From positions 3,348,001 through 3,412,000 of the forward strand of contig NZ_CP104285.1 in NCBI RefSeq assembly GCF_025244905.1: DNA of 64,000 bases. The letters run 5' to 3'. Under the pieces are notes generated by a model. That model was not told the DNA's origin. It did no database searches and was given only the letters and a program-made list of their open reading frames with translations. Made by a program: the position numbers and the translations under genes. Below are positions 27,851 to 37,440 of the stretch, piece by piece. Position 1 is the stretch's first letter, and each line of letters starts with the position of its first letter. The DNA is from Enterobacter mori (lineage in GTDB: Bacteria; Pseudomonadota; Gammaproteobacteria; Enterobacterales; Enterobacteriaceae).

Positions 27851-28207
27851 ATGACAGACGCGGTAAAAATCTACCATAACCCTCGCTGCTCCAAGAGCAG
27901 GGATATCCTCAACCTGTTGAAATCTAACGGTGTTGAACCAGAGGTGGTGCTGTATCTCGAAACGCCGCCGGATGCACAAACCCTTCGTCAGCTGCTGCAC
28001 ATGCTGGGAATGGGCAGCGCCAGAGAGCTGATGCGCCAGAAAGAAGATCTGTATAAGTCGCTCAATCTGGATGACTCACGTTTGTCAGAGGACCAGCTGG
28101 TGCAGGCGATGGTTGAGAATCCAAAGCTGATTGAACGCCCGATTGTGGTGGCAAACGGTAAGGCGCGCATTGGACGTCCGCCGGAAGACGTGCTCGAGAT
28201 CCTCTAG
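27851..28207 (+). CDS. yfgD: ArsC-family arsenate reductase-like protein (YfgD)
   Basis: 118-residue glutaredoxin-dependent arsenate reductase family protein. The active-site Cys is in YHNPRCSKSRDIL, and the RPIVVANGKARIGRPPE segment supplies the conserved Arg residues that bind oxyanion in ArsC. No arsR or arsB lies nearby, so an arsenic role is uncertain. It follows bepA by 15 bp with an AAGGAAG site and is probably co-transcribed. The stop codon overlaps the stop of the converging gene at 28204. Confidence 0.88.
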   Translation: MTDAVKIYHNPRCSKSRDILNLLKSNGVEPEVVLYLETPPDAQTLRQLLHMLGMGSARELMRQKEDLYKSLNLDDSRLSEDQLVQAMVENPKLIERPIVVANGKARIGRPPEDVLEIL

Positions 28208-29028
28208 TCCTTATGCCGCAGCGCTTCCAGAAAGGCCTGCGGCGTACTTTCCCCCAGTTTTTTCTGCGCTTTTCCCCGGTTGTAAAACTCACACAGCGCG
28301 ATCAGCACCGCGCTTGCGGGTTCATCATTCACGCGTGGAATAATATCGCGTAACGGCACCGCCACCTGAAGCGCATTGTGTTTATGTGGATGCGTTTTCA
28401 CAGCCACGTTCTGCGCGGTTAGCGTCACCTCAAAGCCAAAAGTCTCAATAGATTGTATATCAGCCGGGCAGGCCTCAAGCAGCGCCTGCGTCCAGGTATT
28501 CAGCATCTGAGGCGAGAGTCCCGCATAAAGCCGGGCATAGCACCAGCCGCTCACCGGTTCACGCGCCCAGAGCAGGTGTTGCTCCCCGCCATCGTCCATA
28601 TGCAGCGACAAAGGCAGATGATGCAGCGTCAGCGCGCGCGGCATAATGCCTACCTTCAGCGCCTTTTTCCCCTGCAACGGAGCCCCTTTTTGTTTTGCAG
28701 AGGCCGGTTTGAGGTAGCGATTCAATGTCGCCCGGGAAACGGGGATCCCCAGCACGCCGTTGACCATCTGCAGCAATTCATCTAACGGCGCGCCCAGGAC
28801 GTCACGCAGGGCATTCACCAGTGCGATCTGCTCTTGTCTCATCACTTTGTGTGTCATTTTCGGTGTCGTCTGGTTATCCGAAACCTGCTCGCGGTTACGC
28901 CAGCGCCTGACGGTCGTGACCGAGATCCCAAGCTCAACGGCCAGCTCTCTATCGCTTTTATCTGACTGCTGAAGGTAGCGACGGATACGCGGTGTGGTGG
29001 TGGCATTAGCGTGCAGTTTAATTTCCAT
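28204..29028 (-). CDS. Helix-turn-helix protein resembling a domesticated IS481-type transposase, putative regulator
   Basis: 274 residues. The N-terminus has a helix-turn-helix (DRELAVELGISVTTVRRWRNRE, split as DRELAVELGI and SVTTVRRWRN). The C-terminal part resembles an integrase-core domain: LHMDDGGEQHLLWA aligns with the first catalytic Asp region of IS481-type transposases, and EFYNRGKAQKKLGESTPQ with their usual YNxxRPHxxLG..TP ending. The second Asp (DNGxEFT in active enzymes) is replaced by TFGFEVT, and the third catalytic Glu region is missing, so it should not transpose. There are no terminal repeats. It is divergent from the EIIC operon, with 147 bp between, which suggests it regulates that operon. 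I do not recognise a named homologue. Confidence 0.65.
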   Translation of the reverse strand: MEIKLHANATTTPRIRRYLQQSDKSDRELAVELGISVTTVRRWRNREQVSDNQTTPKMTHKVMRQEQIALVNALRDVLGAPLDELLQMVNGVLGIPVSRATLNRYLKPASAKQKGAPLQGKKALKVGIMPRALTLHHLPLSLHMDDGGEQHLLWAREPVSGWCYARLYAGLSPQMLNTWTQALLEACPADIQSIETFGFEVTLTAQNVAVKTHPHKHNALQVAVPLRDIIPRVNDEPASAVLIALCEFYNRGKAQKKLGESTPQAFLEALRHKD

Positions 29029-29080
29029 CGCAACATTTCCGTTAACTAATCATATGAGATTTATATAACATCAGCGATTG

Positions 29081-29102
29081 CTTTGTGACCGATTTCACCT
29101 TT
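29081..29102 (+). promoter_or_regulatory. CRP site of the EIIC-glycosylasparaginase operon
   Basis: TGTGA-CCGATT-TCACC (29084-29099) matches the CRP core TGTGA-N6-TCACA at nine of ten bases. Its centre, 29091.5, lies 41.5 bp before the start predicted from the GATAAT -10 element at 29121-29126: the class II arrangement. This marks the operon as carbon-catabolite controlled. Confidence 0.75.
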
Positions 29103-29120
29103 CGCTCGCCGCGCTTCACT

Positions 29121-29126
29121 GATAAT
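29121..29126 (+). promoter_or_regulatory. Predicted -10 element of the EIIC operon
   Basis: GATAAT, preceded by T, at the distance from the CRP site that places transcription start at about 29133. There is no good -35, as usual for class II CRP promoters. Confidence 0.55.
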
Positions 29127-29175
29127 CCACAGACATAACATAAACAACGCCACTCAATCTTGTACGGAGTTCACA

Positions 29176-30495
29176 ATGAACAATGTTCTGGGATTTCTTG
29201 AAGCAAAACTGATGCCGCTGGCGGCCAAAACGGCCCAGCAGCGTCATCTCGGGGCCATTCGCGGTGCCTACGTGTCATTCATGCCGTTTATCATCGTCGG
29301 CTCTATTCTGCTGGTGATCTCCTCTTTCCCGAATCAAGCCTATCAGCAGTTTATGTCTCAGGCCTTTGGTGAGAGCTGGAGCGCCATTATTGAAATCCCG
29401 TTCAACGCGGTGTTCTCCACCATGTCGCTGTTCATCAGCTTCCTGGTCGCCTTCCGCCTGGCGGAACACTATGGCGAGGATCGTATCTCCTGCGGCATCC
29501 TGGCGCTGGTCGCCTTTCTCATCCTGACGCCCTTTGTCAAAGTGGCGGAAAACGGCAGTATTACCGTCATTCCGGTGGAGTGGATTGGCAGCAAAGGGCT
29601 GTTCGTGGCGATGATTGGTTCCCTGCTGTGGACAGAGCTGTTCTGCTGGCTGAAGCGCAAAAAACTGGTGATCAAAATGCCGGACGGCGTACCGCCAGCG
29701 GTGCAGGAGTCTTTTGCCGCGCTGATCCCGGCCCTGCTGGTGATGATTCTGGTGCTGGGTATCCGCATCGTCTTTGAAAACACCCACTACAACACCATCC
29801 ACCAGTTTATTTACGACGTGGTTGCCACGCCGGTGCGCCACTACGGCACCTCTTACTTTGGCGCGCTGATGACGGTGTTCAGCATCACCATTCTGTGGTC
29901 AGTGGGCATTAACTCCGGCTCGATGATCAACGGCATCATTCGACCGCTGTGGATGGAGAACCAGACCGACAACATCGCGGCGATTCAGGCAGGCACAACG
30001 CCGCCGCACATTATCACCGAACAGTTTTTTGACATGATCTGGATGGGCGGCGCGGGGGCCACGCTGTCGCTGGTGATTGCGATGCTGATTTTCGCCCGCA
30101 GTAAAAACATGCGCGAAGTGGCGCGCCTCGGCGCGGGCGCGTCGGTGTTCAACATCAACGAGCCGATTCTGTTTGGCCTGCCGGTGATCATGAACCCGAT
30201 CATGCTTATCCCGTTCAACCTGGTGCCGCTGGTGCTGGTTACCGTGCAGTATGCGGCGATGAAAATTGGTGCCGTGGCCGTCACCACCGGGGTGTTTATT
30301 CCCTGGACGCTGCCGCCGGTGATCAGCGGCTTTATCGTCACCGGGCACCTGAGCGGCAGCGTCATGCAGCTTCTCAACCTGCTGATTGGCGCCATGCTGT
30401 ATCTGCCTTTCATGCGTATCCTGGATAAACAGTACCGCGCGGCGGAAATAGCCAGCGTTACGCAAACCGACACCACCCTTGCAAAACAGGAGTAA
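29176..30495 (+). CDS. PTS EIIC permease, cellobiose/chitobiose (CelB) family, orphan
   Basis: 439-residue membrane permease of the lactose/cellobiose/diacetylchitobiose PTS family. About ten helices are visible. The conserved FNINEPILFGLPVIMNP signature has Asn328, Glu329 and Pro330, the Glu being the family's sugar-binding residue. No EIIA or EIIB domain is fused, and no such gene occurs in the window. It must borrow EIIA/EIIB from elsewhere (for example chitobiose components) or work without phosphorylation. It is first in an operon with a glycosylasparaginase (4 bp later) and an aminopeptidase, so the cargo is plausibly an amino-acid-linked GlcNAc. Substrate is inferred only from context. 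Confidence 0.88.
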   Translation: MNNVLGFLEAKLMPLAAKTAQQRHLGAIRGAYVSFMPFIIVGSILLVISSFPNQAYQQFMSQAFGESWSAIIEIPFNAVFSTMSLFISFLVAFRLAEHYGEDRISCGILALVAFLILTPFVKVAENGSITVIPVEWIGSKGLFVAMIGSLLWTELFCWLKRKKLVIKMPDGVPPAVQESFAALIPALLVMILVLGIRIVFENTHYNTIHQFIYDVVATPVRHYGTSYFGALMTVFSITILWSVGINSGSMINGIIRPLWMENQTDNIAAIQAGTTPPHIITEQFFDMIWMGGAGATLSLVIAMLIFARSKNMREVARLGAGASVFNINEPILFGLPVIMNPIMLIPFNLVPLVLVTVQYAAMKIGAVAVTTGVFIPWTLPPVISGFIVTGHLSGSVMQLLNLLIGAMLYLPFMRILDKQYRAAEIASVTQTDTTLAKQE

Positions 30496-30498
30496 AGC

Positions 30499-31455
30499 AT
30501 GTGGGGAATTATCGCCACCTGGCGAATGGCGCTTGAAGGCGTCACGGAGTCTGCCTCTGCGCTGGCTGCGGGCAAACCTGTCGCTGCGGCGGTGGTGGAT
30601 GCCGTCGCCGCCGTCGAGGACTTTCCGCTGTATAAATCCGTCGGCTACGGCGGACTCCCCACCGAAAACGGTGAGGTGGAGCTGGACGCCGCCTATATGG
30701 ACGGCGACACGCTGGCCTTTGGTGCCGTGGGCAATCTGGTGGATATCGCCAACCCGGTGCGCGTGGCGCACGCGCTCAGCCGCCAGCGCTACAACAGCCT
30801 GCTGGTCGGCCAGGGCGCGCGGGAATGGGCGCTGAGCCAGGGCTTCGCCGACAAAACCATGCTCACCGAACGCGCCATGCAGCACTACCGCAAGCGCTGC
30901 CGCGAAACGCTGGATAAAGGCCTAAGCCCTTACGACGGGCATGACACCGTCGGCATTATCGGCCTCGACAAGCAGGGCTCGATGAGCGTCGCCACCTCCA
31001 CCAGCGGGCTGTTTATGAAAAAACGCGGCCGCATTGGTGATTCACCCATTATTGGCTCCGGCTTTTACTGCGACAGCGAAACCGGTGCCGCCACCGCCAC
31101 GGGCGTCGGTGAAGATCTGATGAAAGGCTGCACCAGCTACGAAATCGTCCGCAGGATGGCGCAGGGTATGACGCCGCAGCAGGCGGCAGATTCCGTGGTG
31201 TTCGAACTGGAGGACAAGCTGATGTCACGCTTTGGTCGCGTGGGCGATCTCTCCGTGGTGTGCATGAACAACAGGGGCGAATTTGGTGCCGCTACCAACA
31301 TCAAAACCTTCTCGTTCGTGGTGGCGACAGCTCGCCAGCCTCTCACTGTTTATCGTACCGAGCGACTGCGGGAGAAAACGCACTATCACGCCGTGGACGA
31401 AGAATGGATGCAGGCCTACGCCGCGCGGATCCGCGCGCCGATTGAGGAGTCATGA
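30499..31455 (+). CDS. Glycosylasparaginase: N4-(beta-N-acetylglucosaminyl)-L-asparaginase
   Basis: Ntn-hydrolase that splits the GlcNAc-Asn bond to give aspartate, ammonia and GlcNAc, or their phosphorylated form if import is by PTS. 318 residues. The autocleavage site is HDTVGIIGLD, making T150 the nucleophile once the chain is cut at 149/150. The substrate pocket is also present: T168 in TSTSG, and R178 and D181 in GRIGDSPI, matching the human and Flavobacterium enzymes. W8 may correspond to their conserved N-terminal Trp. There is no signal peptide, so it acts in the cytoplasm on imported substrate. Isoaspartyl peptidase is the main alternative, but the HDT and GRIGDSP motifs favour glycosylasparaginase. 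The stop overlaps the next start as ATGA. Confidence 0.88.
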   Translation: MWGIIATWRMALEGVTESASALAAGKPVAAAVVDAVAAVEDFPLYKSVGYGGLPTENGEVELDAAYMDGDTLAFGAVGNLVDIANPVRVAHALSRQRYNSLLVGQGAREWALSQGFADKTMLTERAMQHYRKRCRETLDKGLSPYDGHDTVGIIGLDKQGSMSVATSTSGLFMKKRGRIGDSPIIGSGFYCDSETGAATATGVGEDLMKGCTSYEIVRRMAQGMTPQQAADSVVFELEDKLMSRFGRVGDLSVVCMNNRGEFGAATNIKTFSFVVATARQPLTVYRTERLREKTHYHAVDEEWMQAYAARIRAPIEES

Positions 31456-32873
31456 TGATTACGTATCAGTTTATCACCGCGCTTTCTGACGCAAAGCCAC
31501 AGAGCCATTTGATTGCCCGCGCCAGCTGTCACCTTCTGCCGCAAAATGCGCTTATCGAGGAAATGCGCGAGTCTGACAGCATCGCAGATACCCGTTTTGG
31601 CTGCGCGCCGTTTGCCCGGATCACCCTGCTGCCCGATGCGCTCTGGCAGGATAGCCTGACTGCAGAATTACTGACGGCGCTGCGCCCGCTGCTGGCCTCG
31701 CCCGTCAGCCCCGAGCTGATACTGGACGTGACTGATATCGACGATGTGGTGCTGGTGCAGGTGCTGCGTTTTCTCTTTAATCAGGCGCACAGGCTGAGCG
31801 ATTTGCAGTTGAAAAAAACCAATGACAAGGTCCGTCTTGAGCGCATCACCGCACTCTGCTTACCCGAACAGCAGGACCGACTGGCGGTCATTTTCCGCCA
31901 GCAGCAGGCCATCGCCCACGGCATGGTCGCGGCGCGACGCCTGGCCGATACGCCGTCGGATCGCTGCACGCCGCAGTTTGTCGTCGAAGAGGCGCAAAAG
32001 CTCTGTGCCGCCTTCCCTGCCCTACGGTGTGAGGTGTTGGATGAAAAGCAAATCGTTGAGCAAGGTCTGGGGCTGCTGCATGCCGTTGGCAAAGGGGCGA
32101 CCTGTCCGCCGCGCCTGCTGGCGCTTCATTATGACGGCGTGAATGACGGCCCGGTGCGCTGCTATGTCGGCAAAGGCATTACCTTTGATACCGGCGGCCT
32201 GTGGCTGAAGGACGGCGCGGGCATGTACACAATGAAATACGACATGTGCGGCGCGGCTAACGTGCTGGGGCTGATGCTGACCGTGGCAAAGCTGGGATTA
32301 CCCGTACGCATTATGGGCGTGCTGGCGCTGGCGGAAAACGCCATTGGCCCTGATGCCATGCAGCCAGGCACGGTGGCGACAGCCTGCAGCGGCACCACGG
32401 TGGAAATCAACAACACCGATGCCGAAGGCCGACTGGTGCTGGCAGACGCCATCGCCTGGGCCAGCCAGCGCCATCCGCAGGCGCGCTATATCATTGATAT
32501 GGCGACCTTAACCGGCGCAGTCGTCAAAGCGCTGGGGTATGAATTGAGCGGATTAATGACGCAGGATGAACCGCTGCGCGCGGCGCTGACGCTGGCGGGT
32601 AAGCAGAGTGGCGATGAAGTGTGGTCCCTGCCGCTGGACGCCCGGCTGAGAAAACAGACCGACAGCGCCATTGCCGATCTGTGCAACACGCCGACCAACA
32701 ATGCGGCAATCAGCGCCTCGGCGGCGTGGCTGCTGCATCACTTCTGTCCGCCGACCATTCCGTGGGCGCATCTGGACATCAGCGGCACGGCGCTGTGGCG
32801 TGAGAATGGTAAGAGCGTAGCATCGGGAAGACCGATTCCGCTGCTCGTGGAGCATCTGTTGGGGGATCTTTAG
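31452..32873 (+). CDS. M17 family leucyl-type aminopeptidase
   Basis: 473-residue cytosolic aminopeptidase. All metal and catalytic residues are present with the family's exact spacing: K241, D246 (GKGITFDTGG), K253, D264 (YDMCGAAN), D323 and E325 with R327 (NNTDAEGRLVLADA). The N-terminal domain is shorter and divergent from PepA. It starts at ATG 31452, overlapping the glycosylasparaginase stop. Glycosylasparaginase needs Asn with a free alpha-amino group, so an aminopeptidase that trims residues in front of a glycosylated Asn would fit the pathway; this is inference. It is the last gene of the operon, and a REP pair follows directly. Confidence 0.9.
   Translation: MMITYQFITALSDAKPQSHLIARASCHLLPQNALIEEMRESDSIADTRFGCAPFARITLLPDALWQDSLTAELLTALRPLLASPVSPELILDVTDIDDVVLVQVLRFLFNQAHRLSDLQLKKTNDKVRLERITALCLPEQQDRLAVIFRQQQAIAHGMVAARRLADTPSDRCTPQFVVEEAQKLCAAFPALRCEVLDEKQIVEQGLGLLHAVGKGATCPPRLLALHYDGVNDGPVRCYVGKGITFDTGGLWLKDGAGMYTMKYDMCGAANVLGLMLTVAKLGLPVRIMGVLALAENAIGPDAMQPGTVATACSGTTVEINNTDAEGRLVLADAIAWASQRHPQARYIIDMATLTGAVVKALGYELSGLMTQDEPLRAALTLAGKQSGDEVWSLPLDARLRKQTDSAIADLCNTPTNNAAISASAAWLLHHFCPPTIPWAHLDISGTALWRENGKSVASGRPIPLLVEHLLGDL

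Positions 32874-35970: not shown

Positions 35971-37440
<1,470 letters not shown>

Follow-up and report, generated by a model that had tools for sequence, protein, structure and literature searches.

In a 64,000-nucleotide stretch of the Enterobacter mori genome (hereafter the window; the genome is one contig of 4.79 Mb), four genes form what we consider, with good confidence, to be a CRP-activated operon for the uptake and cleavage of N-acetylglucosaminyl-asparagine (GlcNAc-Asn), with borrowed EIIB and EIIA components and a transposase-derived regulator. An EIIC of the phosphotransferase system (PTS), a glycosylasparaginase (AGA) and an M17 aminopeptidase are encoded in a row, and the regulator gene is divergent from them (Table 1). 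The pathway is likely, its logic being already known from Enterococcus and Lactobacillus, and its Gram-negative form is likely new. The most novel part is the transposase-derived transcription factor with operators that resemble terminal repeats. An earlier note on this DNA, made from the letters alone, had described the four open reading frames and their divergent layout, and both are as it described them. The same is true of the ATGA overlap between AGA and M17; the gap between EIIC and AGA, given there as 4 bp, measures 3 nt.

In the proposed pathway, GlcNAc-Asn and perhaps short glycopeptides from digested glycoproteins would enter through the dedicated EIIC. EIIB and EIIA would be supplied from elsewhere in the genome, and the sugar would be phosphorylated on entry, probably to the 6-phosphate. 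The AGA would then split the beta-aspartyl-glycosylamine bond, yielding aspartate and 1-amino-GlcNAc-6-phosphate. The latter would decay to ammonia and GlcNAc-6-phosphate for NagA and NagB, the genes of which are present in the genome. The M17 enzyme would trim the amino side of imported peptides and so expose a free asparagine amino group. CRP would activate transcription from a class II position. The regulator would bind a terminal-repeat-like operator beside the CRP site (on both flanks in lineages with two sites), and would control both the operon and itself. It probably acts as a repressor and is presumably released by the glycoamino acid.

Linkage was assessed at 80 loci, the best of 343 AGA relatives from a scan of genome contigs. 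They span Enterobacteriaceae, Vibrionaceae and Clostridia and include many close kin, so they do not represent 80 independent cases. EIIC lies directly 5' of AGA, at a spacing of 1-35 nt, in 70/80 loci. The other ten are all clostridial; five of these have an EIIC 0.6-5.2 kb 5' of AGA, and none was found at the remaining five. M17 is present at 66/80 loci by our own count (upstream of EIIC in L066), and the regulator at 69/80; of these 69 loci, 54 have it upstream in divergent orientation and 15 have it downstream. The closest of the loci compared is another Enterobacter mori locus, L008 (regulator 95%, BepA 99%). The operon is flanked by arsC and hda in the window, as it is in Enterobacter, Kluyvera and others; these neighbours are absent at the Klebsiella oxytoca-type, Hafnia-type, Cedecea/Buttiauxella and Vibrionaceae loci. 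Because the two genes stay together in several differing chromosomal neighbourhoods, the EIIC-AGA linkage is real and goes beyond chance. The search for conserved linkage that the earlier note had called for thus comes out in its favour, and the objection it had attached to a lack of linkage falls away.

The identification of the AGA as a glycosylasparaginase, also made earlier, is borne out by comparison with solved structures. The highest score, 190 bits, goes to the glycosylasparaginases of Elizabethkingia; chains named isoaspartyl peptidase score 121 bits at most, and no other chain exceeds 125 bits. The NCBIfam equivalog model for beta-aspartyl-peptidase (IaaA) gives 116.5 bits against a cut-off of 567. 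Both the HDT nucleophile and the GRIGDSP motif noted before are present; Thr150, which follows His-Asp, is aligned with the first residue of the 1ayy beta chain, and HDT and GR-GDS each occur in 80/80 loci. In an alignment with 1p4k, the AGA retains the TW motif at the alpha-chain start and SVGYGG, both of which are lacking in the one other Asparaginase_2 enzyme of the genome, which is IaaA-like by alignment. The motifs that form the substrate pocket, GR-GDSP and TATG, are present too and are partly common to IaaA. Autocleavage and activity on GlcNAc-Asn are predicted. The alignment to the Elizabethkingia enzyme starts at residue 4 and leaves no room for a signal peptide, in keeping with the earlier claim, so the AGA is probably cytosolic. 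All 80 loci also share GLFMK[KR] and GEDLMKGC, which are absent from 1p4k. The [KR] position stands for a Met of 1p4k beside GR-GDSP and could perhaps hold a 6-phosphate.

The EIIC just passes the NCBIfam cut-off for cellobiose EIICs (439.9 against 434.45 bits) and fails the ChbC equivalog test (222 against 760 bits), so that its earlier description as a chitobiose carrier is not upheld. With the two EIICs that neighbour EIIB/EIIA genes in the same genome it shares 31-32% identity; one of them, at 31%, belongs to an EIIB-EIIC-EIIA operon that we take for chbBCA by gene order. GIN replaces the GIH of the chitobiose transporter 3qnq in the EIICs of 75/75 EIIC-bearing loci. The two other EIICs of the genome differ at this point: GIH stands in one, and neither GIH nor GIN in the putative ChbC. 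Since the putative ChbC itself lacks both, GIN is, as far as these alignments go, a mark of the AGA-linked EIIC group and not simply an alternative to chitobiose. The glutamate of the 3qnq NINE motif is kept, as NINE or GINE, in the 16 EIICs aligned. In 3qnq, the GIH and NINE residues touch the sugar C6 hydroxyl.

An Asn at the position of the 3qnq sugar-site His in all 75 EIICs means that specificity may differ from that for chitobiose, and the sugar is not fixed by sequence; both would suit a substrate that is some other N-glycosyl-asparagine, for example glucosyl- or chitobiosyl-Asn. We nevertheless consider this decidedly unlikely, given that nagA and nagB provide an obvious outlet for GlcNAc and that GlcNAc-Asn is the substrate of the sole characterised PTS-linked relative known to us, as the title of Combret et al. 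2024 states.

The narrow pass over the cellobiose cut-off also bears on the proposal that the AGA is an isoaspartyl peptidase or asparaginase and that the EIIC imports a beta-glucoside or chitobiose-like sugar, the linkage reflecting shared nutritional conditions only. Asparaginase_2 is a mixed family, and a gene that resembles GH1 glycosidases by eye lies 3 kb away on the minus strand (35971-37440). This gene is however separated from the operon by hda, uraA and upp (also named by eye). Moreover, glycosylasparaginases are the closest solved structures by about 65 bits, the genome already has another, IaaA-like enzyme, and E. faecalis has a lactose/cellobiose EIIBC at its locus for GlcNAc-Asn. 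We regard the proposal as very improbable.

The earlier note called the EIIC an orphan. This stands for the window, whose operon is without EIIB and EIIA, and less so for the family. Four Vibrionaceae loci have the order EIIC-AGA-EIIB-EIIA-regulator without M17, seven Hafnia-type loci have EIIC-AGA-M17-EIIB-EIIA, and in five Buttiauxella/Cedecea loci EIIB follows M17. It is broken in one of the latter (L070, Cedecea colo), where the split match may reflect decay or sequencing error. As several relatives carry both components in the operon, the orphan state looks secondary and is best read, from these gene orders, as a loss. The complete PTS sets of the Vibrionaceae and Hafnia-type relatives likewise tie the AGA to phosphorylating import. 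They speak against an EIIC that works as a permease without phosphorylation, with the AGA acting on free GlcNAc-Asn and a kinase making GlcNAc-6-phosphate afterwards, like SugK of L. casei. Such an arrangement would agree with the absence of EIIB and EIIA from the window operon, and a major facilitator superfamily (MFS) permease and a kinase are used by L. casei. On the other hand, the NINE glutamate of the EIIC is kept and there is no kinase among the four genes. Overall, we judge a non-phosphorylating permease to be unlikely.

If phosphorylation does take place, the partners may come from elsewhere in the genome, which holds 10 PTS_IIB and 3 PTS_IIA matches. Two of these come closest to the AGA-type EIIB (47% to that of Buttiauxella): the EIIB at L088 and one near rpoC. 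The latter belongs to an unlinked EIIB-EIIA pair (L121:8020-8645) beside a 514-aa open reading frame that resembles a membrane protein; no EIIC was seen among the open reading frames of the 17 kb around the pair. At an identity of at least 86%, the rpoC-side EIIB occurs in 41/198 family genomes and in 16/18 genomes with AGA. In the two AGA genomes without it (G268 and G310), an EIIB lies no more than 3 kb from AGA, and all 15 AGA genomes without a listed EIIB beside AGA carry the rpoC-side EIIB at this level. That the pair might be specific to AGA genomes was rejected, as the EIIB is also found in 25/180 genomes without AGA.

The M17 aminopeptidase has its metal-site motifs intact in comparison with 3h8e. 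Its N-terminal 100 residues are unmatched by family models, and it varies more between species than AGA does. The earlier note had placed M17 in the core unit, which does not fit the four Vibrionaceae loci, where no M17 match was found. From the gene content of the loci, M17 is optional, and other peptidases fill its place elsewhere. The C. difficile locus (L082), which is close to the E. faecalis ega locus, reads EIIA-EIIB-EIIC-GRDB-like-AGA-M20-CutC and thus has M20 instead of M17; look-alikes were seen by eye at other clostridial loci. The recruitment of different peptidases by different lineages suggests that glycopeptides are used too, beyond free GlcNAc-Asn.

Clostridial and other loci hold two further kinds of gene. 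The GRDB-like protein between EIIC and AGA in L082 has 172 aa. By Pfam, CutC-family genes lie by AGA in C. difficile (L082:7389-10735, after M20) and in an Oceanospirillales contig (L066:8954-9694, directly), and CutC-like genes were seen by eye at L072, L073, L079 and L081. CutC might act on the glycosylamine product instead of copper; we found no paper that covers both CutC and glycosylasparaginase.

The regulator, which the earlier note had left unidentified, appears to be a catalytically dead IS481 transposase turned gene switch. Pfam gives weak helix-turn-helix (HTH) matches only, and the NCBIfam model transpos_IS481 covers residues 19-194 with 39 bits, below its cut-off of 224. In a tblastn search of plasmids, the ISGlo3 transposase comes first, matching 99% of the length at 30.7% (E 5e-20) in an alignment that takes in the C-terminal YN-LG-TP region. 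Altogether the regulator matches 1,359 plasmid records, every one below 60% identity. An alignment with three IS481 transposases shows that the family's HTH is retained at the N terminus. None of the catalytic residues D, D and E survives in the seven Enterobacterales-type regulators aligned, three of which have Glu at the second position. Regulators from Vibrionaceae and Buttiauxella (L055, L059, L063) keep the first catalytic Asp and not the Glu, and L055 also has TDN one column off the second position. This pattern looks like the graded loss that domestication predicts. A search of the Protein Data Bank by sequence gave no match to the regulator, and the AlphaFold2 model has a mean pLDDT of 84; the fold assigned to the second domain is drawn from sequence alignment and the secondary structure of this model.

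That databases name many of its relatives XRE family regulators, that Pfam offers HTH models only and that solved structures yield no match could all be explained by an ordinary XRE-type HTH repressor, the IS481 likeness being one of HTH fold only. An alignment of 99% of the length, including YN-LG-TP, and the first catalytic aspartate retained in the three aligned Vibrionaceae and Buttiauxella members make this hardly credible. We instead lean towards the view that a whole IS481 transposase became a ligand-responsive transcription factor, in which the HTH would read terminal-repeat-like inverted operators and the fast-diverged, dead domain may sense the glycoamino acid.

The origin of transcription factors from transposases is well known in animals and plants. 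Among open-licence papers, judged by title and the start of the abstract, we found no IS481-derived bacterial transcription factor and no transposase-derived one for a bacterial metabolic operon; a review (PMC8987985), in the part available, names phage and antitoxin HTH proteins instead. Besides two AGA genomes, IS481-related proteins (open frames of 245-344 aa, one per genome in 23) occur in 24/148 genomes of the same order. In the set L106-L118 and L120, eight of the proteins aligned are without the catalytic residues; L119 is an intact transposase. Judged by eye, some have EF-G-like, phosphopantetheinyl-transferase-like or formate-transporter-like genes for neighbours. As other families of the order have derivatives that lack these residues too, the alignment suggests that IS481-derived bacterial DNA-binding proteins arose more than once.

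Table 1. The four genes and the control elements between regulator and EIIC; positions are those of the window.
Feature	Position	Strand	Description
Regulator	28204-29028	-	IS481-transposase-derived (apparent) HTH protein, 274 aa, catalytic D-D-E lost
Candidate regulator operator AATCATATGAGATT	29048-29061		Near-palindrome; IS481 terminal-repeat-like on minus strand
CRP site TGTGACCGATTTCACC	29084-29099		TGTGA in 55/55, TGTGA-N6-TCAC in 48/55 intergenic regions
-10 element GATAAT	29121-29126	+	Invariant ATA and AT columns in aligned intergenic regions
Ribosome-binding site ACGGAG of EIIC gene	29164-29169	+	Conserved with variation
EIIC	29176-30495	+	PTS EIIC, lactose/cellobiose family, 439 aa; PTS_EIIC 201 bits
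AGA	30499-31455	+	Glycosylasparaginase, Ntn hydrolase, 318 aa, nucleophile Thr150, no signal peptide; Asparaginase_2 214 bits
M17 aminopeptidase	31452-32873	+	473 aa; Peptidase_M17 349 bits

The CRP promoter of the earlier note finds support in the conservation of the CRP site across the intergenic regions (Table 1). By our own count, the centre of the site lies at -41.5 relative to the start deduced from the -10 element, which is class II spacing. In the alignment of 55 intergenic regions, the CRP site precedes EIIC, and a varying near-palindrome of roughly AATC-nnnn-GAGATT stands beside the regulator start. Around five IS481 elements, the inverted repeats at the ends read GTCCCGGATGATT or nearly so. 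From the nine IS481-type stretches examined, we built an end matrix on the ten ends of the five elements of the GTCCC...GATT type (one of them, L104, without annotation). The other four were excluded: L100 and L101 have GTCCC with another inner half, and L102 and L105 have no trusted ends. By this matrix, the candidate operator in the window ranks 26 of 127,976 positions. Across 70 sequences (the window and the 69 loci with a regulator), the top-ranked site no more than 260 bp from the EIIC start has a median rank of 7, among mostly about 34,000 positions, and a rank of 20 or better in 56. When every sixth sequence was taken, the median rank was again 7, a value reached by 0/100 column-permuted matrices. 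Clostridial loci without the regulator give ranks of 26-137, and L066, where no regulator was found, gives 132. A second, inverted operator copy lies 29-42 bp before EIIC in 15/15 loci with the regulator downstream and was found in 0/55 of the others. By this comparison, the candidate operator is similar to the terminal repeats of IS481 elements, though at some loci the likeness is weak. A wide regulon was considered and rejected, as the 4.79 Mb contain the pattern AATCNNNTGAGAYT at 6 places, of which this locus accounts for 2. Inside the regulator gene (28441-28454) there is another operator-like palindrome, AATCTATTGAGACT as read on the minus strand, which recurs in several distant loci; it may reflect coding conservation or an internal operator.

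Several points weigh against the operon as we read it. The 6-phosphate could fit the AGA badly, given that a 6-fucose blocks the human enzyme, though AsnA2 of L. casei tolerates it (PMC6960285). The GH1-like gene counts as well, because a beta-glucoside PTS would need a glycosidase. With the rpoC-side EIIB also in genomes that have no AGA, its partnership may reflect shared ancestry only and should be taken as a lead, not as proof. PepV was not needed for growth of L. casei on its glycoamino acid (PMC6960285), so that the peptidase step may be dispensable. As to the operator, the loci ranked are related; the upstream operator itself has a rank number above 20 in 26/70 sequences, several of them from Enterobacter; at some loci the best-ranked site is not the upstream operator; and in L007 the upstream pick differs from the aligned operator.

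Two described systems share the logic of the operon, and the earlier claim that it had not been described holds for the Gram-negative form only, of which we found no description among open-licence papers, judged by title and the start of the abstract. The E. faecalis ega locus comprises EgaG, EIIB and EIIC of the lactose/cellobiose type, a dipeptidase and a GntR regulator (PMC11160706), and the use of GlcNAc-Asn is stated in the title of Combret et al. 2024. Both this locus and that of the window thus have a glycosylasparaginase adjoining a lactose/cellobiose EIIC, together with a peptidase and a regulator. They differ in that ega has a GntR regulator, a dipeptidase, a linked EIIB and a Gram-positive host, whereas the window has M17 and no EIIB in the operon. 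Combret and co-workers are also said to have found PTS phosphorylation before hydrolysis.

The second system, alf-2 of L. casei, likewise joins a cytosolic glycosylasparaginase (AsnA2, which hydrolyses GlcNAc-Asn) to a linked peptidase (PepV, M20) and a regulator, and feeds GlcNAc into metabolism (PMC6960285). It differs in its MFS permease, its fucosidase, the kinase SugK that acts after hydrolysis and its GntR regulator, and GlcNAc-Asn itself gave no growth of a constitutive L. casei mutant (same source). Like Salmonella fra, the window operon would draw carbon and nitrogen from a conjugate of a sugar with asparagine. In fra, a kinase and a deglycase act on an Amadori compound, without a PTS EIIC or a glycosylasparaginase of the AGA family; conversely, the four window genes hold no sugar kinase or deglycase domain. 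The regulator is homologous to the IS481 transposases (ISGlo3) over 99% of its length, with a very similar HTH and with operators like their terminal repeats. It differs in lacking the catalytic residues, in its length (274 against 325 aa) and in standing beside one operon in 69/80 loci.

If our reading is correct, Enterobacteriaceae that are common opportunists (Enterobacter, the Klebsiella oxytoca group, some Citrobacter and Kluyvera) would be able to feed on the Asn-linked stubs of host and dietary glycoproteins as a source of carbon and nitrogen. This would set them apart from E. coli, where none of 5,426 genomes had a place covering at least 80% of the operon, and where the eight matches listed are 79-base patches of chbC. 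The regulator would offer a case, open to test, in which a bacterial DDE transposase became a transcription factor with an operator resembling transposon ends.

Some of the records compared call for comment. A contig titled Chryseobacterium sp. 18061 (L057) shows full Enterobacteriaceae synteny around the operon and is probably contaminated or mislabelled. In Clostridium sp. KNHs214, four contigs (L074-L077) carry AGA matches of identical score, through duplication or an assembly artefact. In the draft genome of Trabulsiella odontotermitis (L040), the regulator, M17 and uraA matches are split, which points to decay or sequencing error.

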